In this document: positions 30,995 to 49,800 of the stretch, one piece after another
Layout of the letters: each line of letters begins with the position of its first letter
Numbering within the stretch: position 1 is the stretch's first letter
NCBI GenBank assembly: GCA_003833135.1
Contig: QZLH01000489.1
Span: forward strand, 1-51,976
Direction: 5' to 3'
Length of the DNA stretch: 51,976 nucleotides
Origin: Oehlia diaphana
Taxonomy: Eukaryota; Glomeromycota; Glomeromycetes; Glomerales; Glomeraceae
Made by a program: the position numbers and the translations under genes
Notes under the pieces: generated by a model
What the model was told of the DNA's origin: nothing
Database searches by the model: none
What the model saw: the letters and a program-made list of their open reading frames with translations, nothing else

Positions 30995-33900
30995 CTAAAC
31001 TGTTGCTAAATTTTTTAATTCTTTTTTTTCTTGGTCTAATTCTAATTTCAATTCATTCAAATTTTTTCTTAATGAATTTATATCTTCTGTCATTATATTA
31101 GAATTTAATCGAATTCTGATTCCTTCCTGAGAATTAGTAGCAAATTTAAAAATTTTGTATTTATCAAGATTAAAAGAATTCAACTTAAAAATATCCTCAA
31201 TCATAAGGCTAATTTCCAACTCTTTATTTTCCTGAACAATTTTCTTTAAGGAATAATAATTTGTGTTCAACTCTAATAATCCATTATTATATTTTATAAG
31301 AATACTTTGAAATTCTCTAGTATATTTGTCAATCAATTTAGAAATTTTCATATCTCTGATAGAACCTATAGTATATTTTTCCTTATTAATAGAACTTTCT
31401 AGATGATTACAGCAATTTTGTAGTTTTTTAATAGCTTCATCTCGCAAAGTTAGGAAATCACCCTTAACTTTCAGAAAATCATTGACTTGATTGAGAACCT
31501 GGTTTTTTCTATTGGCATTATAAGAAGCTGATGTTCTTGATAATTCTTGTTGGAGTTCATTCATCTCCTTTTGTTTAGCTTCTTTTTCTTTATGGATTTC
31601 CTTAGTATTTTTTCCTCTAGTTAATTTATTTAATAATTCCTTTTCAATTTCACTCAATTCTTTTCTTTTATCTTGTAGCTTTTTAATACGCTCTTGATCA
31701 AGGTTAATCAGTCTTTGTTCTAATTCATTTATTTTATCTTTTTTAATCTGTAAAGCTTGAGTTAATTGCATTTTGATTTGTTCTTCAATGATTAAATTTT
31801 GTTCCAATTGAGCAATTTCTTTTTCTAACTTGGCTTTCAATTCAGTAGTAAGCTTTTGATCCTGTAAAAAATCACTCACCATATTTTGCAACCTGATTCT
31901 TCCTTGTTCTATTTGTTCATAATTAACTTGAAACTGATTTAAACTATTTTCTAATTGCTCTTTTTGCTCAATTAAACTTTCTTTGTAAGATTTTGATTCT
32001 TGAATATTAGCTTTTATTTGAGCTAATTTTTCTTGCAATTTAGTTTCATCTTGCTTTAACTGGCTAATTTGACCTTGAACTTGCTGGTTAATTAGTTTAT
32101 TTTGTTCTAACTGTTCAGTTAAATTGATTAAATTGCCAGCTAAACTTTGCTTTTCATTTTGCATGTCAATAATTTGGGTTTGTAAAATATTTTCTTTTTC
32201 TGCAAATTTTTTAATCTGTTTAGCTAAATTAAGCCTCAGATTTTGATTATTATTTTGTTCAAATTTAAAATTCCTTTGTTGTAAATCAAATAAATTATTC
32301 TTTAACTTAATGTTTTCTTCTTCTGTTTGAATTAATTGATTTTTAAATTGAGAATTTCTTTGTTGTAAATTAACTAACTCATTTTGAGAACTTTGATAAT
32401 AAGTTTCAGCAATCTTTTCTAATTTAAGATTTTCTTCTTCTGTTTGAATTAATTGATATTTAAATTGAGAATTTCTTTGTTGTAAATTAACTAACTCATT
32501 TTGAGAACTTTGATAATAAGTTTCAGCAATCTTTTCTAATTTAAGATTTTCTTCTTCTGTTTGAATTAATTGATTTTTATATTTAGAACTTCTTTGTTGT
32601 AAATTAACTAACTCATTTTGAGAACTTTGATAATAAGCTTCAGCAATCTTTTCTAATTTAAAATTTTCTTCTTCTAATTGAATTAATTGATTTTTAAATT
32701 GATTTTGCTGAGATTTTAATTCTTGAATAATGGTTTCTGTTTGGACTAATTTATCTTGCAAATTATTTTTTTCTTGATTTAACTGACTGATTTGTTTTAA
32801 CTGTTCAGTCAGCTTACCATCTAAAGCTTGCTTTTCATTTTGCAGGTTTGCAATTTGGGTATTTTGTAAAGTTGAATTTTGTTGTAAATTAACTAATTCC
32901 ATTTGAATATTTTGTAATTCGATTTTAGAACTTTTATATTTTTGATTTAATTTAAGGAATCCTTGTAAACCTTCTAGAATTCCATTTAATTCTTCACTAG
33001 TAAAATCAAGTAAATGACTTGTATAGCATGCTTTTGGATGAGATTTCACAATATAGTTATTATGCTCAATTGGTGCATTTATAAATTCCATAATATTGCT
33101 TTTTAATTCTTCATTAATATCTTTAATTTTCTTATTTGAAGGACAAAAAATCCAATCTGTAATAATATTTAAAACTTCTTTAGAAGATGGCCTTTTTAAC
33201 GGATCTTCATCCCAGCATTTTTTCATTAGATCTACATAACATAGTGGAGTATTTTCAATAATTTCAGGACGTTCACCTTTATAAATACTTAAAGCAAGTT
33301 GAAGATCATGTGCTTTATCATTAAATGGGTGAATTTCAGATGTAAATTCCCACATAATTATAGAAAAACTATATATATCACTAGCTTGAGTGTAAGGTTG
33401 ACCTCTTAAAATTTCAGGTGCTATAAATGGTAAAACTCCATAGATATTATTTTCTTTAAAAAAGATTTTGCAAGTCGATATAATCCTAAATAATCACTAA
33501 TAAAAATTCCATATATATTTTCATTATATTTGTTACATAAAATATTACCATTATGTAAGTTATAATGAATAAGATCTTTTTCATGAATATCATTAAGACC
33601 GTTAATAATTTGATACAAATAAAATAATTTTTGTTTCCAATTTTTTGTTATTTCTTTTAAACATCTTTTTAAACTACCCTTATTAGTATACTCCATTATT
33701 AATACATAATTCAAAGTATATGGATCTTTTGTAAATCCGTATAATTTAATAATATTATTTGAATAAACAATTTTCCACTATAAAAAATAATATTTATTAG
33801 TAAGATAGTATTATAAATTATAATATTAAAAAAAATTAATATTTAATCATACTTCATTTAAAAATTCATTTAAACTTTCATCTGAATTATTAAGATAATC

Positions 33901-35595
33901 AAAATATTTAAGAATTACTTCAATATTTTTATATGTAGCTTTATATAAAGTACCAAATCCTCCTTTATCAAAATTTTCAATATTTTTAAATTCATAATAA
34001 GGAAACCATTTTAACTTGTTTTTAGAAATAAATTGATTCACGATTTTACTTCCACTAGTACCAAATCTTTGAATATAAAAATGAAATATATAAATATTAA
34101 AATTTAAATAAATAATATTTAAACAATATTAATTATACTTACTCTAAATAAAATTATAAGATTTTAATATAATAAATAATTAATTAATTAAATTATAAAT
34201 AAATAGTACATAATTACTTATGACTTACCAACTAAAAGTTTTTTTATTATGAGTAAATATTATATAATTATGATAAACTAAACATAAAAATATAGGATTA
34301 TTATAATTAAAAAATGCAATACTTACAGGCTAAAATATTTTGGGTGATTTTTTTAAATAATGTAATTAGTTTAAATTATATGTAAATATTATATAAATTT
34401 AATAAATTACTTACTTTCTAAAACATTTGAATAATTTTTTAAATAAAGAATTTAGTTAGTTTAAATTATATGTAAATATTATATAAATATAATAAATTAC
34501 TTGCATTCTAAAATATTTGAATAATTGTTAAATAAAGAATTTAGTTATTTTAAATTATATGTAAATATTATATAAATATAATAAATTACTTACGATCTAA
34601 ATTATTTGAATAATTTTTTAAATAAAGAACTTAGTTGGTTTAAATTATATGTAAATATTATATAAATATAATAAATTACTTACATTCTAAAATATTTGAA
34701 TAATTTTTTAAATAAAGAATTTAGTTAGTTTAAATTATATGTAAATATCATAAATATAAATATAATTGAATAGCATACCCCCTATATTATTAAATAAATA
34801 ATGTTTTAAATAAAGAATTTAGTTAGTTTAAATTATATATAAATATCATATAAATATAAATATAATTGAATTAAATAGCATACCCCCTATATTATTAAAT
34901 AAATAATTTTTTAAATAAAGAATTTAGTTAGTTTAAATTATTTATAAATATTATATAATTATAATAAATTACTTACGATCTAAAATATTTGAATAATTTT
35001 TTAAATAAAGAATTTAGTTTGTTTAAATTATATGTAAATATTGTATAAATATAATAGATTAAACAAATAACTTACACCCTGTAGCATTATTAATTAATAA
35101 ATAAATATAAAGTAAAGTGATTATAATCAATTAGATAAACTATTATAATTGTATATAAAAATTAAGTGTATACAGTAACTTACAATCTATTTAAATAAAT
35201 AATATTATTAGTAAATTATAAATACTTCTAAATTAATATAAAATTAAATACTTACTTTCTATAATATTAGTAATCATTAAACAATTATGTCAATAGAAAA
35301 TTTAGTTATTTAATATCATGTAAAATACAATAAAAAAAATAGCTATTGACTTACCTACTATAATAATAAAATAAATTATTTGGTTATATAAAATTATAGA
35401 AATAAGTAATTTAATTATCATTCCGATTATAAGATAACCTATTACTTACGAGCTAATATACGAGCTAATATAGTCAAATAATTTTTAGAAATAGTTTAAA
35501 AAATTTTAAGTTATATGTTTATAATTTACAAGCTGTTAAATAATTTTCTTACCTTCATCTTCTTTATCTTTCTCAATTTTTGAAACTAGTTCCAT
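30995..35595 (-). CDS. Pseudokinase plus long coiled coil, with intron-ladder 5' region
   Basis: Proposed exons: 35595-35553 (MELVSKIEKDKEDE), a series of 3-nt exons, 34066-33853, then 33777-30995. The 34066 exon holds TSGSKIVNQFISKNKLKW and glycine loop FDKGGFGTLYKATY, but no in-frame ATG, so an upstream start exon is required. The last exon reads IIKLYGFTKDPYTLNYVLIM, LIHYNLHNGNIL in place of HRDxxxxN, and SDYLGL in place of DFG. The catalytic Asp is Asn, so a pseudokinase is likely. After SDYLGLYRLAKSF a 6-A run (33458-33463 on plus) is one base short, shifting the frame. FIAPEILRGQPYTQ and MWEFTSEIHPFNDKAHDL then continue the C-lobe. From about 32990 onward, some 650 residues are heptad-rich coiled coil (Gln, Glu, Leu, Lys), ending KKELKNLATV. 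Function unknown; a scaffold is plausible. The frameshift may be real or a sequencing error. Confidence 0.7.
32315..32705 (-). repeat. 117-bp coding tandem repeat in coiled coil
   Basis: The start TTCTGTTTGA recurs at 32321, 32438 and 32555, and as TTCTAATTGA at 32672, exactly 117 bp apart. Each unit encodes 39 residues around TEEENLKLEKIAETYYQSS and QNELVNLQQRNSQF. Neighbouring units are nearly identical, which indicates recent expansion. The multiple of three keeps the frame, but 39 residues is not a whole number of heptads. Confidence 0.92.
34067..35552 (-). repeat. Ladder of ~15 short introns separated by 3-nt exons
   Basis: On the minus strand a 3' splice site and a 5' splice site lie exactly 3 nt apart again and again (AG|NNN|GTAAGT). 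Triplets in transcript order: CTC 35450-52, TAG 35355-57, AAA 35256-58, ATT 35184-86, GGT 35076-78, ATC 34977-79, GGG 34884-86, GGG 34779-81, AAT 34684-86, ATC 34594-96, AAT 34505-07 (GC donor), AAA 34415-17, CCT 34327-29, TTG 34229-31. A single A at 34143 follows. Spacing is 72-107 bp, a normal intron length here. Units from about 34415 to 34980 are near-identical (period 89-106 bp) with TTTAAACTAAC-type branch sites; outer units are diverged yet keep the spacing. Confidence 0.75.
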
Positions 35596-37529
35596 TATAT
35601 TGCAAATTTGGTTTGAAAAAAATTTTAGAGCAATTTCCATTTGTATTAGATATCAATATTCATGTTATATGCTTTTACTTTTATCCTTACTTTGAGAATT
35701 TCCGAAAAAGAAAGTCCAGGACATACTTTTACAAACAAGTACAAGAGAAGTTAAAATTTAATTGGAATTCTTTTTTATTCGAGTATATATAGTTGTTTGT
35801 GTAATATTATCTATGCACAAATTTTCAGCCAGATATATTTAATTGGGCAACAGGAACCGTTAGAGCGTCCGAATGTTGATGGTATCACAATACAACTTTC
35901 TTGTTGATCATTAGCTATAAGAGTCAAGTTAAAACTAATACTTGTCTTTTTTTCACTTTTACATTTCTTTTAAGAGTATCAAGCGCCAGTACAATAGTGC
36001 TCTTTGCAAAATGCAAATTTTTTTATGAAGAGGGTGGGCATATGAAAAAAAGGCTGATAATTTTCGAACTTTGAAGGCGACTGCGGGCGGAGGCGTGGCT
36101 ACGTGGCATAAGATACGATTATGGTGACACTTGTGACACCAAATGGGTGGGTGTGACAAATAGATTTTCCACTACACCTACTTGCAGATCCTGAGATCTA
36201 ATGGAAAAGAGTTTTTATCGTAAGTTGCAACCACGAGACTTTTCCGGAAGGATGGGCTATATTATTTATAGTTTTTAGTTTCTGTAATTTTTTTATTTTT
36301 TTTTTTTATAGTTATTAGTTTTTTTTTTGTTTTTTATCGATACAGGCATATAATTATAGTTTAGTCTAACATCATATCTATTCGTACCGACCTTATTAAA
36401 ATTTAATTATGTTGTTTTAAAGGTCAATTTAGCATATACTAATTACGTTATCATAATATAATAATGTCTTTATACAGTTCGTAGTATTTTCTTATTACTT
36501 GTTACAGAAAAAGAGCAAAGCATTTAAAATGAGGAAGCTTGGTTTGTCCAAAAAAATTTAACGATAACCTGAATTATTTAGGAAAACAAAAAGAGAATTT
36601 AAAATATACTTTTTAAATGATTGATATTTTCTTTCAATAATTACGTTTATTAAAACATCATACTACCTATTCCATTATTGTGAGACGTTTGTAAAAAATC
36701 AGAAATGTCCTTCAAAGTAAGTTAGAATTTTTTTATTTTGCTTCTTTGATTTTCCTATAATAAGGTGCTTATTTTCTTATTTTAAGTAGATAATTGATAA
36801 AACAAAATTATTTTTTAATGTTAAATTCTTTTATTAATAGTAAAGATAATGGGATACGGTACTTCAAAATAGCACTAAAAAAAAAGTCTTTAAAATGAAT
36901 TTTTTTCATTGATAAAAACTTATCTATATTGAGTTATAATATTCCTTATTACTATATCATAAATATAAAACCTAAAGCACTATCTTAAATATAAATATAA
37001 TCTTAAATATTAAATAGGCATAACTAATTATAAAATAGAAATAGAATATTATTATAAATAATAACAACGAAAGTGTATACAGTATATCGATTGTATCGTC
37101 TATAAAAATTCTAGACTTCTTTTTATAGTCTCTTTTATGTTTTTTTGTTCAATTTCTTGTATTTATTATAAAATCAACCGCTCCTCTTTAAAAATGGTTT
37201 GTGAAATTTTCTGGTAAATAAATCTTCGTCGGTGAAGTTTCAACTTTCGACTTATTCATTATGTACATTATTAGCTGAAGAAACGAATCTTAGATTGAGA
37301 AATATTTTTTCACTTAATTATTTAATTGATTTCTTGCAATATAAATTTTAATAGATGTTACCTTGAGGAGTAACTGGACAAGTAGTTTCATTAGAAAATT
37401 GGAGAGGGAAATAAAGTTATCCATTGGAAGCAGCCTATTTAAATAGATGAACTTAAAAAGTAAGACCGGTCAAATAAAATTTAGAACTTTGTAACATAAA
37501 ATTTTTTTAAAAAAATGTAGAGACCGGCT
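35596..37529. other. Intergenic region upstream of the coiled-coil gene
   Basis: No gene is supported. A 66-codon minus frame at 35959-36159 covers the most GC-rich patch (AGGCGTGGCTACGTGGCATA) and may be a transposon remnant. CAGGAACCGTTAGAGCGTCC at 35848 resembles text near 14545. The rest is A/T-rich. Confidence 0.4.
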
Positions 37530-46864: not shown

Positions 46865-49800
46865 TTACTTTTCGTTTACTTTTTCACTCACTTCTCCACT
46901 CGCTTCTCCACTCACTTCATCCACTTTTTCACTCGCTTCACCACTCACTTCATCCACTTTTTTACTCGATTCAACACTCACTTCATCCACTTTTTCGCTC
47001 GCTTCTTCACTCGCTTTTCCACTCGCTTCTTCATCCACTTTTTCACTCGCTTCTCCACTCACTTCTCCACTCACTTTTTCGCTCACTTCTTCGCTAACTT
47101 CTTCATTCACTTTTTCACTCGCTTCCTCGCTAACTTCTTCACTCACTTTTTCGATCATTTCTTCGTTAACTTTTTCACTCACTTTTTCGCTCACTTCTTC
47201 GCTAATTTCTTCGCTAACTTCTTCGCTCACTTTTTCACTTAATTCTTCGCTAACTTCTCCACTCACTTTTTCGTTCACTTTTTTGTTCACTTCTTCGCTC
47301 ACTTCTTCGTTAACCTCTTTACTCACTTTTCCGCTCAATTCTTCGCTTATTTTATTTTCGATCTTAGGTATCTTAGGTGGAGTGAGTGATTCAATTTTAG
47401 CCAGTAATCCTATAATACGTGACTAATAAAAAAAATAAAAAAATACGAATATTTATGTTTAGTAAAATATGTATGAAAAAATCACATACACTAAATATAT
47501 ACCTGTAATTCTTCGTTATGCTTTTTAACTTCATCAAATTGAGTTTCCAACTTTTTGAATTCTTTATCCCTCTTATCTCTTTCAAATGACCATATCATCA
47601 TCTAAAATTATTATCCGATTAATAGAATTAATTATGAATTAAAGAATATTTCATATTTGAAAGGAAAATCATTATACTTGTTTTTCCAACGCTTTTTCAG
47701 GTCTTTCTATGTTTTTTGTAGAATTCTCCAATTGAATTTTTAGATCATCAATAATAAGAGATTGCGAACTAATAAATAAGACAAACAATTAATATATACA
47801 ACTATTTACGGAGACCAACACTAACTTATTCCATCAATAAATTGGTAACTTGTAAGAAAGGATATGATGAAATTAAGTTTCGTCTTGAGGATGCATCTGC
47901 TTGCATCATCAGTGGACCAGGTGCAATATCAACCTAACTTGTGTGTCTCCACTGCTTCTCTATTTTATCAACTGGTAGAAATTCATGAAAAAAATTCCTT
48001 ACCTAATGGTGAATCTTAATTGTTGAATCTCATATTCGCCAGATTTCAACATCATTTCCATTTTATGCCAATTCCCTACTAAAGTTTCCATTAATCTTTT
48101 TTGTTCTTGAAATTTTATCGTATCAGCTTCCCTGTAATAAAAAAAAATAAATGAATAAATATGTTATTTCTAATTATTTTAGATCGTTAATATTGTTAAT
48201 TAAAAAAAAAAATTAAAATATTATGAATAATCCCTTCTTTATTTACCATAACATAAGTTGTTTTGTCAATTGATCAATGGTGTGTTCGTATTCTGTTAAT
48301 TTTTGAAGTTGGGGCTCATGTAATTTGATTTGATTCTCAAGTGAGAAACATCTAAAAATAAAGTATTATATAGTTATCATATAATTTTTGTTGTCATTAC
48401 ATTAAATACAATACATTATTTACTTACTTCGCACTAAACACCTCGATTTGTTTATTTTGCGCGTCTATTACAAGCTTAAAAAAAAAGATGAAATAGTAAA
48501 AAATCATTAATTTAAATAATCCACAAACCCATAAATATATTTACAAATACGTTAAAGATTCTTCTTACCCTAGATTCGCTTAATTCTTGTTCTAATTTAT
48601 CTAAAATACTCTTCCATTCTTTTTTCTCATTTTTATATTGTTTCAATTTATTATTTAATTCATTCTCCCATTGAACGTGTTTCTTTTTTGTATTAGTAGT
48701 TTCAGTTTTTTGTCTGTCAAACGCGGCTTGAGTTTGTGATAATTGTGATTTTAATATTTTACATGTATTATATAAATTTTGTCTTTCAGCTTCAACTGTA
48801 CTATCTAATATATGATCACGATGTAATCTACCAATATGTTGAAGATGTTGTTGTTTAAGATAAAGTTCAAAATTTAATTCATTCCTCAAAAGCATTATTT
48901 CACGTTGTAAATATGCCACACTAGCTTGCGTGTTTGTAGTGCTTGTAATTGGTGGTGATTCATTTTCAGGTGGCGGAGTAGGATGATTAACAGTTAGAAA
49001 ATTTGAATATGATATTATCCTTGATGCCTAAAATTAAATTTTTTTTAAAAAAAATTTTTTTTAATAATTTTTGTAAATAATTAAATAATTTTAATTTTAA
49101 GATATAGACTTAAGTAAACTTAAGTAAAATGCACTTACCCAAGGATCATCCCCTACAACAATATCAGCACCACTTTTAAGAGCCTGATGAACATCCATAA
49201 TTTCATGTATAGAAATTGCTTGTGAAGGACGTCTTGCTTTTTGAGTTTTCTTTTCAGTTATTTTAGTATCAGCTTCTTCCAATACTATTTTAGTTAGATT
49301 TTCCAATTCGTTTGAATTATTTGAATTAGAAGAAGCATTCTCCATATCATAACTAACGCATTCGGCAACTACATCAGCAGGTTCAAGTTTCATCCATCTT
49401 GATGTATCTGAAAGTTCTTTCTCTGAATCGCTCATTATAAGATTTGGGTGAAGTGTGTGAATTCGTAATAATGACTAAAATAAATTATTTTTAAATAAAA
49501 AATAAAATAAAATGGAAAAAAGTAAAATTTAAGTCTTTAATTTATTACCATACTTCTCGCTCTTATAATATCATCATCAAATTTTTCAATTAAAGGAACT
49601 TTATTCATCTCTTTAATCCAGCCAGAAGGATCTTTTAAAAACTTTACAGTATTACATGGAAACATTCCATACAAAAATGTAAAAAGTTGCTTACAACTTG
49701 GTGGACTTGATGGTGCATTATCAAAAGTCGAATCTGTAAAAAAAAAAAAAAAATTTTAAAAAGATGTTTAATAGAAAACAAATATGTATATTTAAATTAA

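Follow-up and report, generated by a model that had tools for sequence, protein, structure and literature searches.

The stretch of DNA analysed here (the window) comprises 51,976 nt of contig QZLH01000489.1 of the Oehlia diaphana assembly GCA_003833135.1. It has a G+C content of 25% and carries on its minus strand a kinase-like gene, whose predicted parts are a start exon, exon 1, 14 triplets with a 1-nt unit, the kinase exons and a tail (Table 1). The triplets form what we call a ladder: between 34229 and 35452, fourteen units consisting of AG, three bases and a 5′ splice-site sequence succeed each other on the minus strand, with GTAAGT as the donor in 11 cases, GTATGC in two and GCAAGT in one. 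Judging from the sequence, we consider it very probable that the rungs of this ladder are single-codon exons spliced in series, numbering 14 in this gene and as many as 50 in its sisters, and that the series is closed by a 1-nt exon that restores the reading frame.

The ladder is not confined to the window. With one ladder stretch as the query, 616 matches were obtained in the same genome (108.8 Mb in 1672 contigs), and all 20 loci fetched from among these matches by ladder-intron similarity hold strand-specific AG-N3-GTAAGT arrays, the richest locus having 41 strict units. The first kinase exon, in turn, has protein matches to 150 scored places in the genome. A ladder lies upstream of all of the 30 best, which were picked by protein similarity and not by ladder sequence; 14 of them overlap loci already collected (one being the window) and 16 are new. 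The ladder is also present at the lower-ranked locus L059 (TTA, ATG, ACT, TTG, A), while none was found in the 501 bases fetched at L060 and L061, two more distant kinase genes. Thus, the ladder appears characteristic of one subfamily within these kinases. Altogether, the 22 arrays from the fetched loci and the window, plus 16 further arrays, yielded 659 triplets and 31 single-base units; detected arrays hold 6–50 triplets, some being cut by contig ends or N, and the largest, L021, has 50 triplets and one 1-nt unit when called with weight matrices. A first-pass annotation of the window had proposed that the arrangement is older than its last duplications and possibly maintained; it does recur across the gene family, with the spacing kept in diverged members. 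The same annotation took the central rungs for recent copies and the outer ones for diverged, and this fits a tandem repeat detected at 34320–35061 (period 90, 76% match).

The spacing between acceptor and donor is nearly invariant. A splice-site scan of the 22 arrays, with weight matrices trained on the strict 3-nt units of those same arrays, found 469 sites with a 3-nt spacer, 14 with a 1-nt spacer, and 0–3 at every other spacer length from 0 to 15 nt; an acceptor directly abutting a donor was seen once. For comparison, Markov-shuffled sequence yields 0–2 sites per spacer and the antisense strand 0–3. The 16 further arrays, which lie outside the training set, contain 167 sites with a 3-nt spacer, six with 1 nt, two with 6 nt and four with others of up to 30 nt. 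Genome-wide, we counted, overlaps included, every run of three consecutive GTAAGT donors, 70–100 bases apart, with AG-N3 before the second and third. This pattern has 948 matches (434+514), against 10 for the reversed pattern and 0 for a version with an N4 spacer. Hence, chance is excluded as the source of the 3-nt spacing by the spacer counts, the shuffles and the antisense strand, and the 14 AG-NNN-donor triplets first noticed in the window are confirmed. The closing 1-nt unit at 34143 had not been singled out in the first-pass annotation. A satellite or random AT-rich repeat is likewise ruled out, as the arrays lie between coding exons, in one orientation and with one spacer length. The ladder introns (n=599, counting units less than 150 bases apart) have a median length of 93 nt and range from 67 to 141 nt, and GTAAGT accounts for 391 of the 492 donors in the 22 arrays. 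Some ladder introns contain inserted DNA: in L014, L021 and L027, a short element resembling a miniature inverted-repeat transposable element, GC-richer and with inverted-repeat-like ends (CACCGGGGGTGAT...), leaves gaps of about 210–275 bases in the ladder, and other introns hold longer, unrelated inserts.

Table 1. Predicted parts of the ladder gene in the window, in the order of transcription.
Feature	Position	Strand	Basis
Predicted exon 0: start codon, first 15 codons and 1 nt (MSWTFFFGNSQSKDK), then GTAAAAG	35679..35724	-	sequence, read by eye
Predicted exon 1, 33 nt, end GATGAAG/GTAAG, 1 nt (G) left for the ladder	35553..35585	-	sequence
Microexon 1, CTC; partial second copy AGCTCGTA just upstream	35450..35452	-	sequence
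Microexon 2, TAG (TTG in most of 13 other ladder starts)	35355..35357	-	sequence, start comparison
Microexon 3, AAA	35256..35258	-	sequence
Microexon 4, ATT	35184..35186	-	sequence
Microexon 5, GGT	35076..35078	-	sequence
Microexon 6, ATC	34977..34979	-	sequence
Microexon 7, GGG, donor GTATGC	34884..34886	-	sequence
Microexon 8, GGG, donor GTATGC	34779..34781	-	sequence
Microexon 9, AAT	34684..34686	-	sequence
Microexon 10, ATC	34594..34596	-	sequence
Microexon 11, AAT, GC donor GCAAGT	34505..34507	-	sequence
Microexon 12, AAA; the AAT-AAA join is the sole in-frame stop (T/AA) among 568 tested pairs	34415..34417	-	sequence
Microexon 13, CCT	34327..34329	-	sequence
Microexon 14, TTG	34229..34231	-	sequence
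1-nt microexon A (AG-A-GTAAGT), predicted to bring the ladder into the kinase frame	34143..34143	-	sequence
First kinase exon: 1 nt + FGTSGSKIVNQF...NEFLNE, then a 75-nt intron	33853..34066	-	protein matches
Remaining kinase domain and coiled-coil-like tail	30995..33777	-	two overlapping frames, 33421-33777 and 30995-33493

The exons on either side of the ladder constrain how it can be read. A search pattern for exon 0 and exon 1, which does not match the window's own exon 0, was matched in 11 of the 22 sense arrays, and in all 11 one nucleotide is left over; exon 1 of these paralogs is 24, 27, 51 or 96 nt long, always a multiple of three. At the other end, the start of the first kinase exon was matched at 23 of the 30 loci and gives one base to a split codon. 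When the leftover base of exon 1 is joined to the kinase exon, either directly or by way of triplets only, a stop falls inside the kinase exon in 23 of 23 cases. In 22 of these 23 loci, the window included, a 1-nt unit lies 74–99 bases upstream of the kinase exon (A in 21 and G in one). Given that the kinase exon runs into a stop at all 23 loci without it, the frame calls for the predicted 1-nt exon, and it tolerates whatever number of triplets comes before. The initial suggestion that any subset of triplets preserves the frame therefore stands only with this exon included; without it, the 23 kinase exons are closed. Single-base units also occur in the middle of two ladders (T and C, in L023 and L055), away from the ladder end.

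In the phase set by exon 1 (phase 1), each codon consists of the last base of one triplet and the first two bases of the next, and a stop requires a final T in one triplet followed by AA, AG or GA at the start of the next. Among 421 adjacent pairs less than 150 bases apart, one such stop was found, compared with a mean of 14.5 when triplets are shuffled within arrays; none of 5000 shuffles gave so low a count. With the first five and last three detected rungs dropped, the interior pairs contain 0 stops in 269 where 6.7 are expected (p 0.0004), and the 16 further arrays contain 0 in 147 where 6.1 are expected (p 0.0004). Over both sets of arrays, about 21 stops are expected in 568 codons; the only one observed lies in the copy in the window. 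In the next phase stops are not depleted, with 63 and 19 in the two sets of arrays. Joining the same neighbours in reverse order produces 25 and 7 stops, nine of the 25 being the conserved AAA-ATT pair; counted as distinct pair types, a stop is formed by one of 194 in the real order versus 15 in reverse, and by 0 of 122 versus 7 in the second set. Furthermore, L056 and L057 have a 6-nt rung, ATTCTT, where L048 has ATT and CTT apart. On sequence comparison this rung looks like the exact loss of one intron, as one would expect were these triplets joined in spliced RNA.

The same results bear on the proposal that the array is a minisatellite within one long intron, in which only the outermost donor and acceptor matter and the inner sites are passengers or serve a stepwise removal that leaves nothing behind. 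In its favour, the central copies repeat in tandem every 90 bp or so, and ladder introns can accommodate inserted DNA. Nevertheless, the direct join between exon 1 and the kinase exon is interrupted by a stop at 23 of 23 loci, the triplets avoid stops in the frame of exon 1, and the N3 spacer persists throughout the genome with no N4 counterpart, so that we regard this proposal as highly improbable. The first-pass suggestion that a 1.5-kb intron is removed in steps fares similarly: with stops avoided and ladder-less joins closed, the evidence favours 3-nt coding exons that stay in the transcript.

Several observations weigh against the reading of the ladder as phase-1 codons closed by a 1-nt exon. 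No 1-nt unit is visible in L049. With the unit, 22 of the 23 kinase exons are open over 60 codons, but this count is partly so by construction, because exon starts were matched only where the frame was open; it is protein similarity that establishes the kinase frame itself. The stop counts leave aside 51 pairs at least 150 bases apart, two of which (in L016 and L051) are stops if nothing lies between. When synonymous codon choice is compared with that of the genome's long reading frames, phase 1 scores best in both sets (mean log2 of 0.07, -0.38 and -0.06 for phases 1, 0 and 2 in set one, and of 0.30, 0.01 and -0.37 in set two), but shuffling the units leaves the score unchanged, so that it reflects which triplets occur and not their order. 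Amino-acid composition fits phase 0 better (-4.00 vs -4.55 and -4.25 vs -4.36). Stop triplets in phase 0 are rare as well, with 3 in 659 compared with about 22 after column shuffling; this rarity is not specific to stops, since TAT and TAC are also absent. No intronless, contiguous copy of a ladder peptide, which would have served as proof of splicing, was found among 85 scored genome candidates. Finally, the copy in the window combines its in-frame stop (AAT/AAA) with a frameshifted kinase and may yield no such protein.

Across the 38 arrays, one triplet in 659 begins with TA. AG-TAN may be avoided because a competing GTANGT donor would form across the junction between acceptor and exon.

The deposited protein models of relatives bring a second alternative into view. 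Only the 7996 candidates sharing most words with the window's kinase open reading frame (ORF) were scored; among the 120 relatives listed, the top two are from R. irregularis (79% and 70% identity) and the highest identity is 83%, over 46% of the query. Models P0003 and P0069 of R. irregularis and P0015 and P0065 of R. diaphanus have odd N-termini ahead of the kinase exon, rich in G, L, I, M and E, that end in LSK or LGK directly before FGKS or SGKS. Judging from the proteins, these four models seem to take the rungs as phase-0 codons, the last exon being 5 nt long (AGTAA or GGTAA); this again counts against phase 1, as does the composition of the P0003 peptide, which favoured phase 0, if not decisively. 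In addition, 21 of the 42 relatives' models that have this first kinase exon, among 135 proteins retrieved, start inside it. These protein models suggest that the ladder exists in other species and is mis-framed by gene finders, or else that phase 0 is correct.

In this second alternative, then, the triplets are coding but in phase 0, and a 5-nt exon takes the place of the 1-nt exon, as in what the Rhizophagus models appear to contain; the LSK and LGK ends are what AGT AA/A or GGT AA/A would give, phase 0 is nearly open too, and it is the phase that amino-acid composition fits best. Phase 0, however, is not in frame from exon 0 and exon 1 in any of the 11 matched arrays, and its synonymous codon choice is worse than that of phase 1. 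The change from TTG to TAG at the second rung of the window's ladder (C/TT to C/TA) and that from TTG to TCG in L018 are synonymous in phase 1 and not in phase 0. In L016, which belongs to the same gene as L045, the 5-nt exon would close with a stop, and in L011 it would depend on a GC donor. Furthermore, some of the relatives' models apparently start at an ATG triplet, P0015 and probably also P0002 and P0017, which looks like a gene-finder artefact. On balance, phase 0 is an improbable reading, and phase 1 with its closing 1-nt exon remains the one we prefer.

The divergence of triplets was set against that of the introns between them. Over 225 nearest-neighbour intron pairs, with a divergence of 3.5%, differences at the first, second and third triplet positions amount to 32, 36 and 50%. 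In the 31 pairs of introns that are less than 1.5% different (mean 0.9%), the flanking triplets differ at 32% of sites upstream and 34% downstream, and 77% of them are not identical. Where both flanking introns are close (24 cases), the introns differ by 1.8% and 3.6% and the triplets by 36%. Per site, triplets thus differ some 10 to 37 times as much as the near-identical introns between them, a contrast given without a significance value because the pairs are not independent; as a baseline, triplets picked at random show differences at 68% of sites, and introns paired at random have a median difference of 12% plus 18 gapped sites. The conserved end units were kept out of the rates, since missed units shift the register of a position-wise comparison and one filter was circular. 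Tandem duplication in which triplets are not selected is rejected as the full story, given introns at 0.9% next to flanking triplets at 32–34% (36% when both introns are close).

From its sequence, the ladder segment looks strongly diversified. The excess in triplets could come from diversifying selection, from homogenisation of introns combined with selection against the loss of codon differences, or from a targeted mutation process. Changes between C and T at the middle base, which are always synonymous in phase 1, are rare; changes between A and G at this base, mostly synonymous, are not rare, and the synonymous-site pattern gave no clean reading of diversifying selection. That codons should change more than introns is unusual in itself, and speaks for either strong diversifying selection or targeted mutation.

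The first-pass annotation also raised an introner-like process, and a third alternative states it in full: an introner-like element would insert with a 3-bp target-site duplication beside it, with each insertion creating one codon and one intron. It would account for near-identical introns between different triplets, and introners with target-site duplications of 3–9 bp are described in excerpts of the literature (PMC9860276). However, a duplication would make neighbouring triplets alike, and adjacent triplets are no more often identical than shuffled ones (39/269 vs 38.8, and 9/121 vs 8.7); a 3-bp target-site duplication, the only kind that this test covers, is therefore unsupported. In addition, the intron-similar loci, which stand for a part of the 616 matches, hold ladders in 20 of 20 cases, and no unrelated gene was seen in their printed flanks, several of which end at contig ends or N. 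An introner-like origin is hence unlikely to our mind. Probably, an intron was duplicated together with its triplet to give each new rung, and the triplets diversified strongly.

How might such a ladder be spliced? Probably, the introns, of about 90 nt, are each recognised by intron definition and excised in succession, since three exonic nucleotides leave no room for the complexes of both splice sites at the same time. Each splicing step would add three bases to the growing upstream exon and expose the next donor, and the dominant GTAAGT donor may make up for the missing exon side. In recursive splicing at 0-nt exons, an acceptor is followed directly by a donor and consecutive introns are removed stepwise. 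The serial scheme would resemble this, and the ladder shares with recursive sites and with stwintrons the adjacency of acceptor and donor and the consecutive introns; unlike at recursive sites, three bases are predicted to be kept per step, leaving one codon each time. A stwintron-like organisation, another early suggestion, does not fit, in that every unit has its own complete and separate donor and acceptor, and whole introns lie side by side with none split by another. The ladder is also like introners in having a family of near-identical introns, but among the loci examined it was seen in one gene family only, and its neighbouring triplets lack the identity that target-site duplications would leave. 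The closing 1-nt exon would then restore the kinase frame. With 3 nt in almost all rungs but the last, the gain, loss or skipping of a rung would alter the protein by one residue with the frame kept.

The predicted product is a variable segment between a conserved start and a conserved end, ahead of a kinase or pseudokinase domain. Of 13 ladder starts that were compared, five read exactly CTC TTG AAA ATT GGT and the rest are near it or have missed units; the middle rungs are mostly ATC-, TTG- or GGA-like, and many ladders end in CCT or CTT, TTG and A before the kinase exon. The predicted segment often starts with ALENW (ALSDW in L027) and ends in F before EFG, FEFG usually following P, S or T. 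In L021, the predicted segment is about 50 residues long and contains no stop. It is conceivable, if doubtful, that this is a diversity-generating system, in which each ladder would be a set of interchangeable one-codon exons, and DNA turnover (homogenised introns and hypervariable codons) and splicing (every choice of rungs being in frame provided that the 1-nt exon is included) together would give receptor-like kinases or pseudokinases a near-unlimited range of recognition peptides, perhaps for self/non-self or partner recognition in arbuscular mycorrhizal fungi.

The closest known kind of structure appears to be the micro-exon genes (MEGs) of flatworms. In the excerpts of PMC7653826 and PMC10526429, the MEGs of schistosomes and tapeworms contain series of very short coding exons, for the most part divisible by three in length, which are hard for gene finders and keep the frame under exon skipping. 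The criteria printed in the excerpt of PMC7653826 are at least seven exons, of which micro-exons (<70 nt and divisible by three) make up at least half, with a run of four; the predicted structure, with 14 triplets in the window and 6–50 per detected array, falls within them. For S. mansoni, the excerpt of PMC10526429 gives 10–20 short exons of 6–81 bp (3–81 in the abstract), mostly 15 bp, introns of 0.1–5 kb, and secreted proteins. The ladder, with 3-nt rungs and a median intron of 93 nt, does not have these exon and intron sizes. Thus, the ladder is like MEGs in its predicted series of very short, frame-preserving coding exons, and unlike them in that nearly all rungs are exactly 3 nt, with up to 50 in a row and introns of 67–141 nt, that the last rung is 1 nt, that the host is a fungus and that the product has a kinase domain. 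On sequence grounds, a fungal and almost purely one-codon form of this kind would be new.

Exons of 1 nt are described for APC11 and VPS55, the one in VPS55 being flanked by a strong GTRAGT donor, in the excerpts of PMC8831610 and PMC4674806, and a 3-nt exon for Drosophila homothorax in that of PMC7392893. For the 1-nt exon of Arabidopsis APC11, Guo and Liu proposed intron definition and recursive splicing, according to the excerpt of PMC4674806. These plant and insect microexons are single, whereas the ladders are long serial arrays in dozens of genes. Microexons are said to be little studied in fungi in the excerpt of PMC11121469, and, judging by titles and the openings of abstracts, we found no report of serial 3-nt exons, be it in arbuscular mycorrhizal fungi, Rhizophagus or elsewhere, in the parts of the open-licence literature that were available.

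Should the predicted splicing be correct, this one genome has dozens of genes built with the smallest exons that preserve a frame, tens of them in a row, together with 1-nt exons. They would then be a natural system for testing the limits of intron definition and serial splicing, as well as a clear case of intron-borne codon duplication building protein segments. This would also explain why half of the family models examined start inside the kinase exon and why a few seemingly misread the ladder.

The copy in the window shows signs of damage. Its kinase domain is split across the overlapping frames 33421–33777 and 30995–33493 near 33470, consistent with a frameshift or an error in sequencing, and its in-frame stop adjoins the GC donor; the 3-nt spacing is intact at all 14 rungs. 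Probably, the window holds a decaying member of the family, or else errors in the sequence. A Pfam kinase match (PF07714/PF00069) above the cut-off was obtained for the window ORF at 30995–33493 and for the joined L021 product. No Rfam family reaches its gathering score in 33700–35800.

The catalytic-loop motif reads HYNLHNGN or HYNFHNGN in the window (33421–33777) and in the L021 kinase domain, HYNFHDGN in L014 and HCDFHDDN in L027. In the window, L021 and L014, the aspartate expected after H-x is replaced, and this branch may presumably consist of pseudokinases. Within the open frame of the coiled-coil-like tail lies a 117-bp tandem repeat of 3.3 copies (32313–32702, 95% match). Elsewhere in the window, at 46878–47344, a tandem array with a 12-bp period (ACTTCTTCACTC) extends over about 40 copies and is possibly coding.

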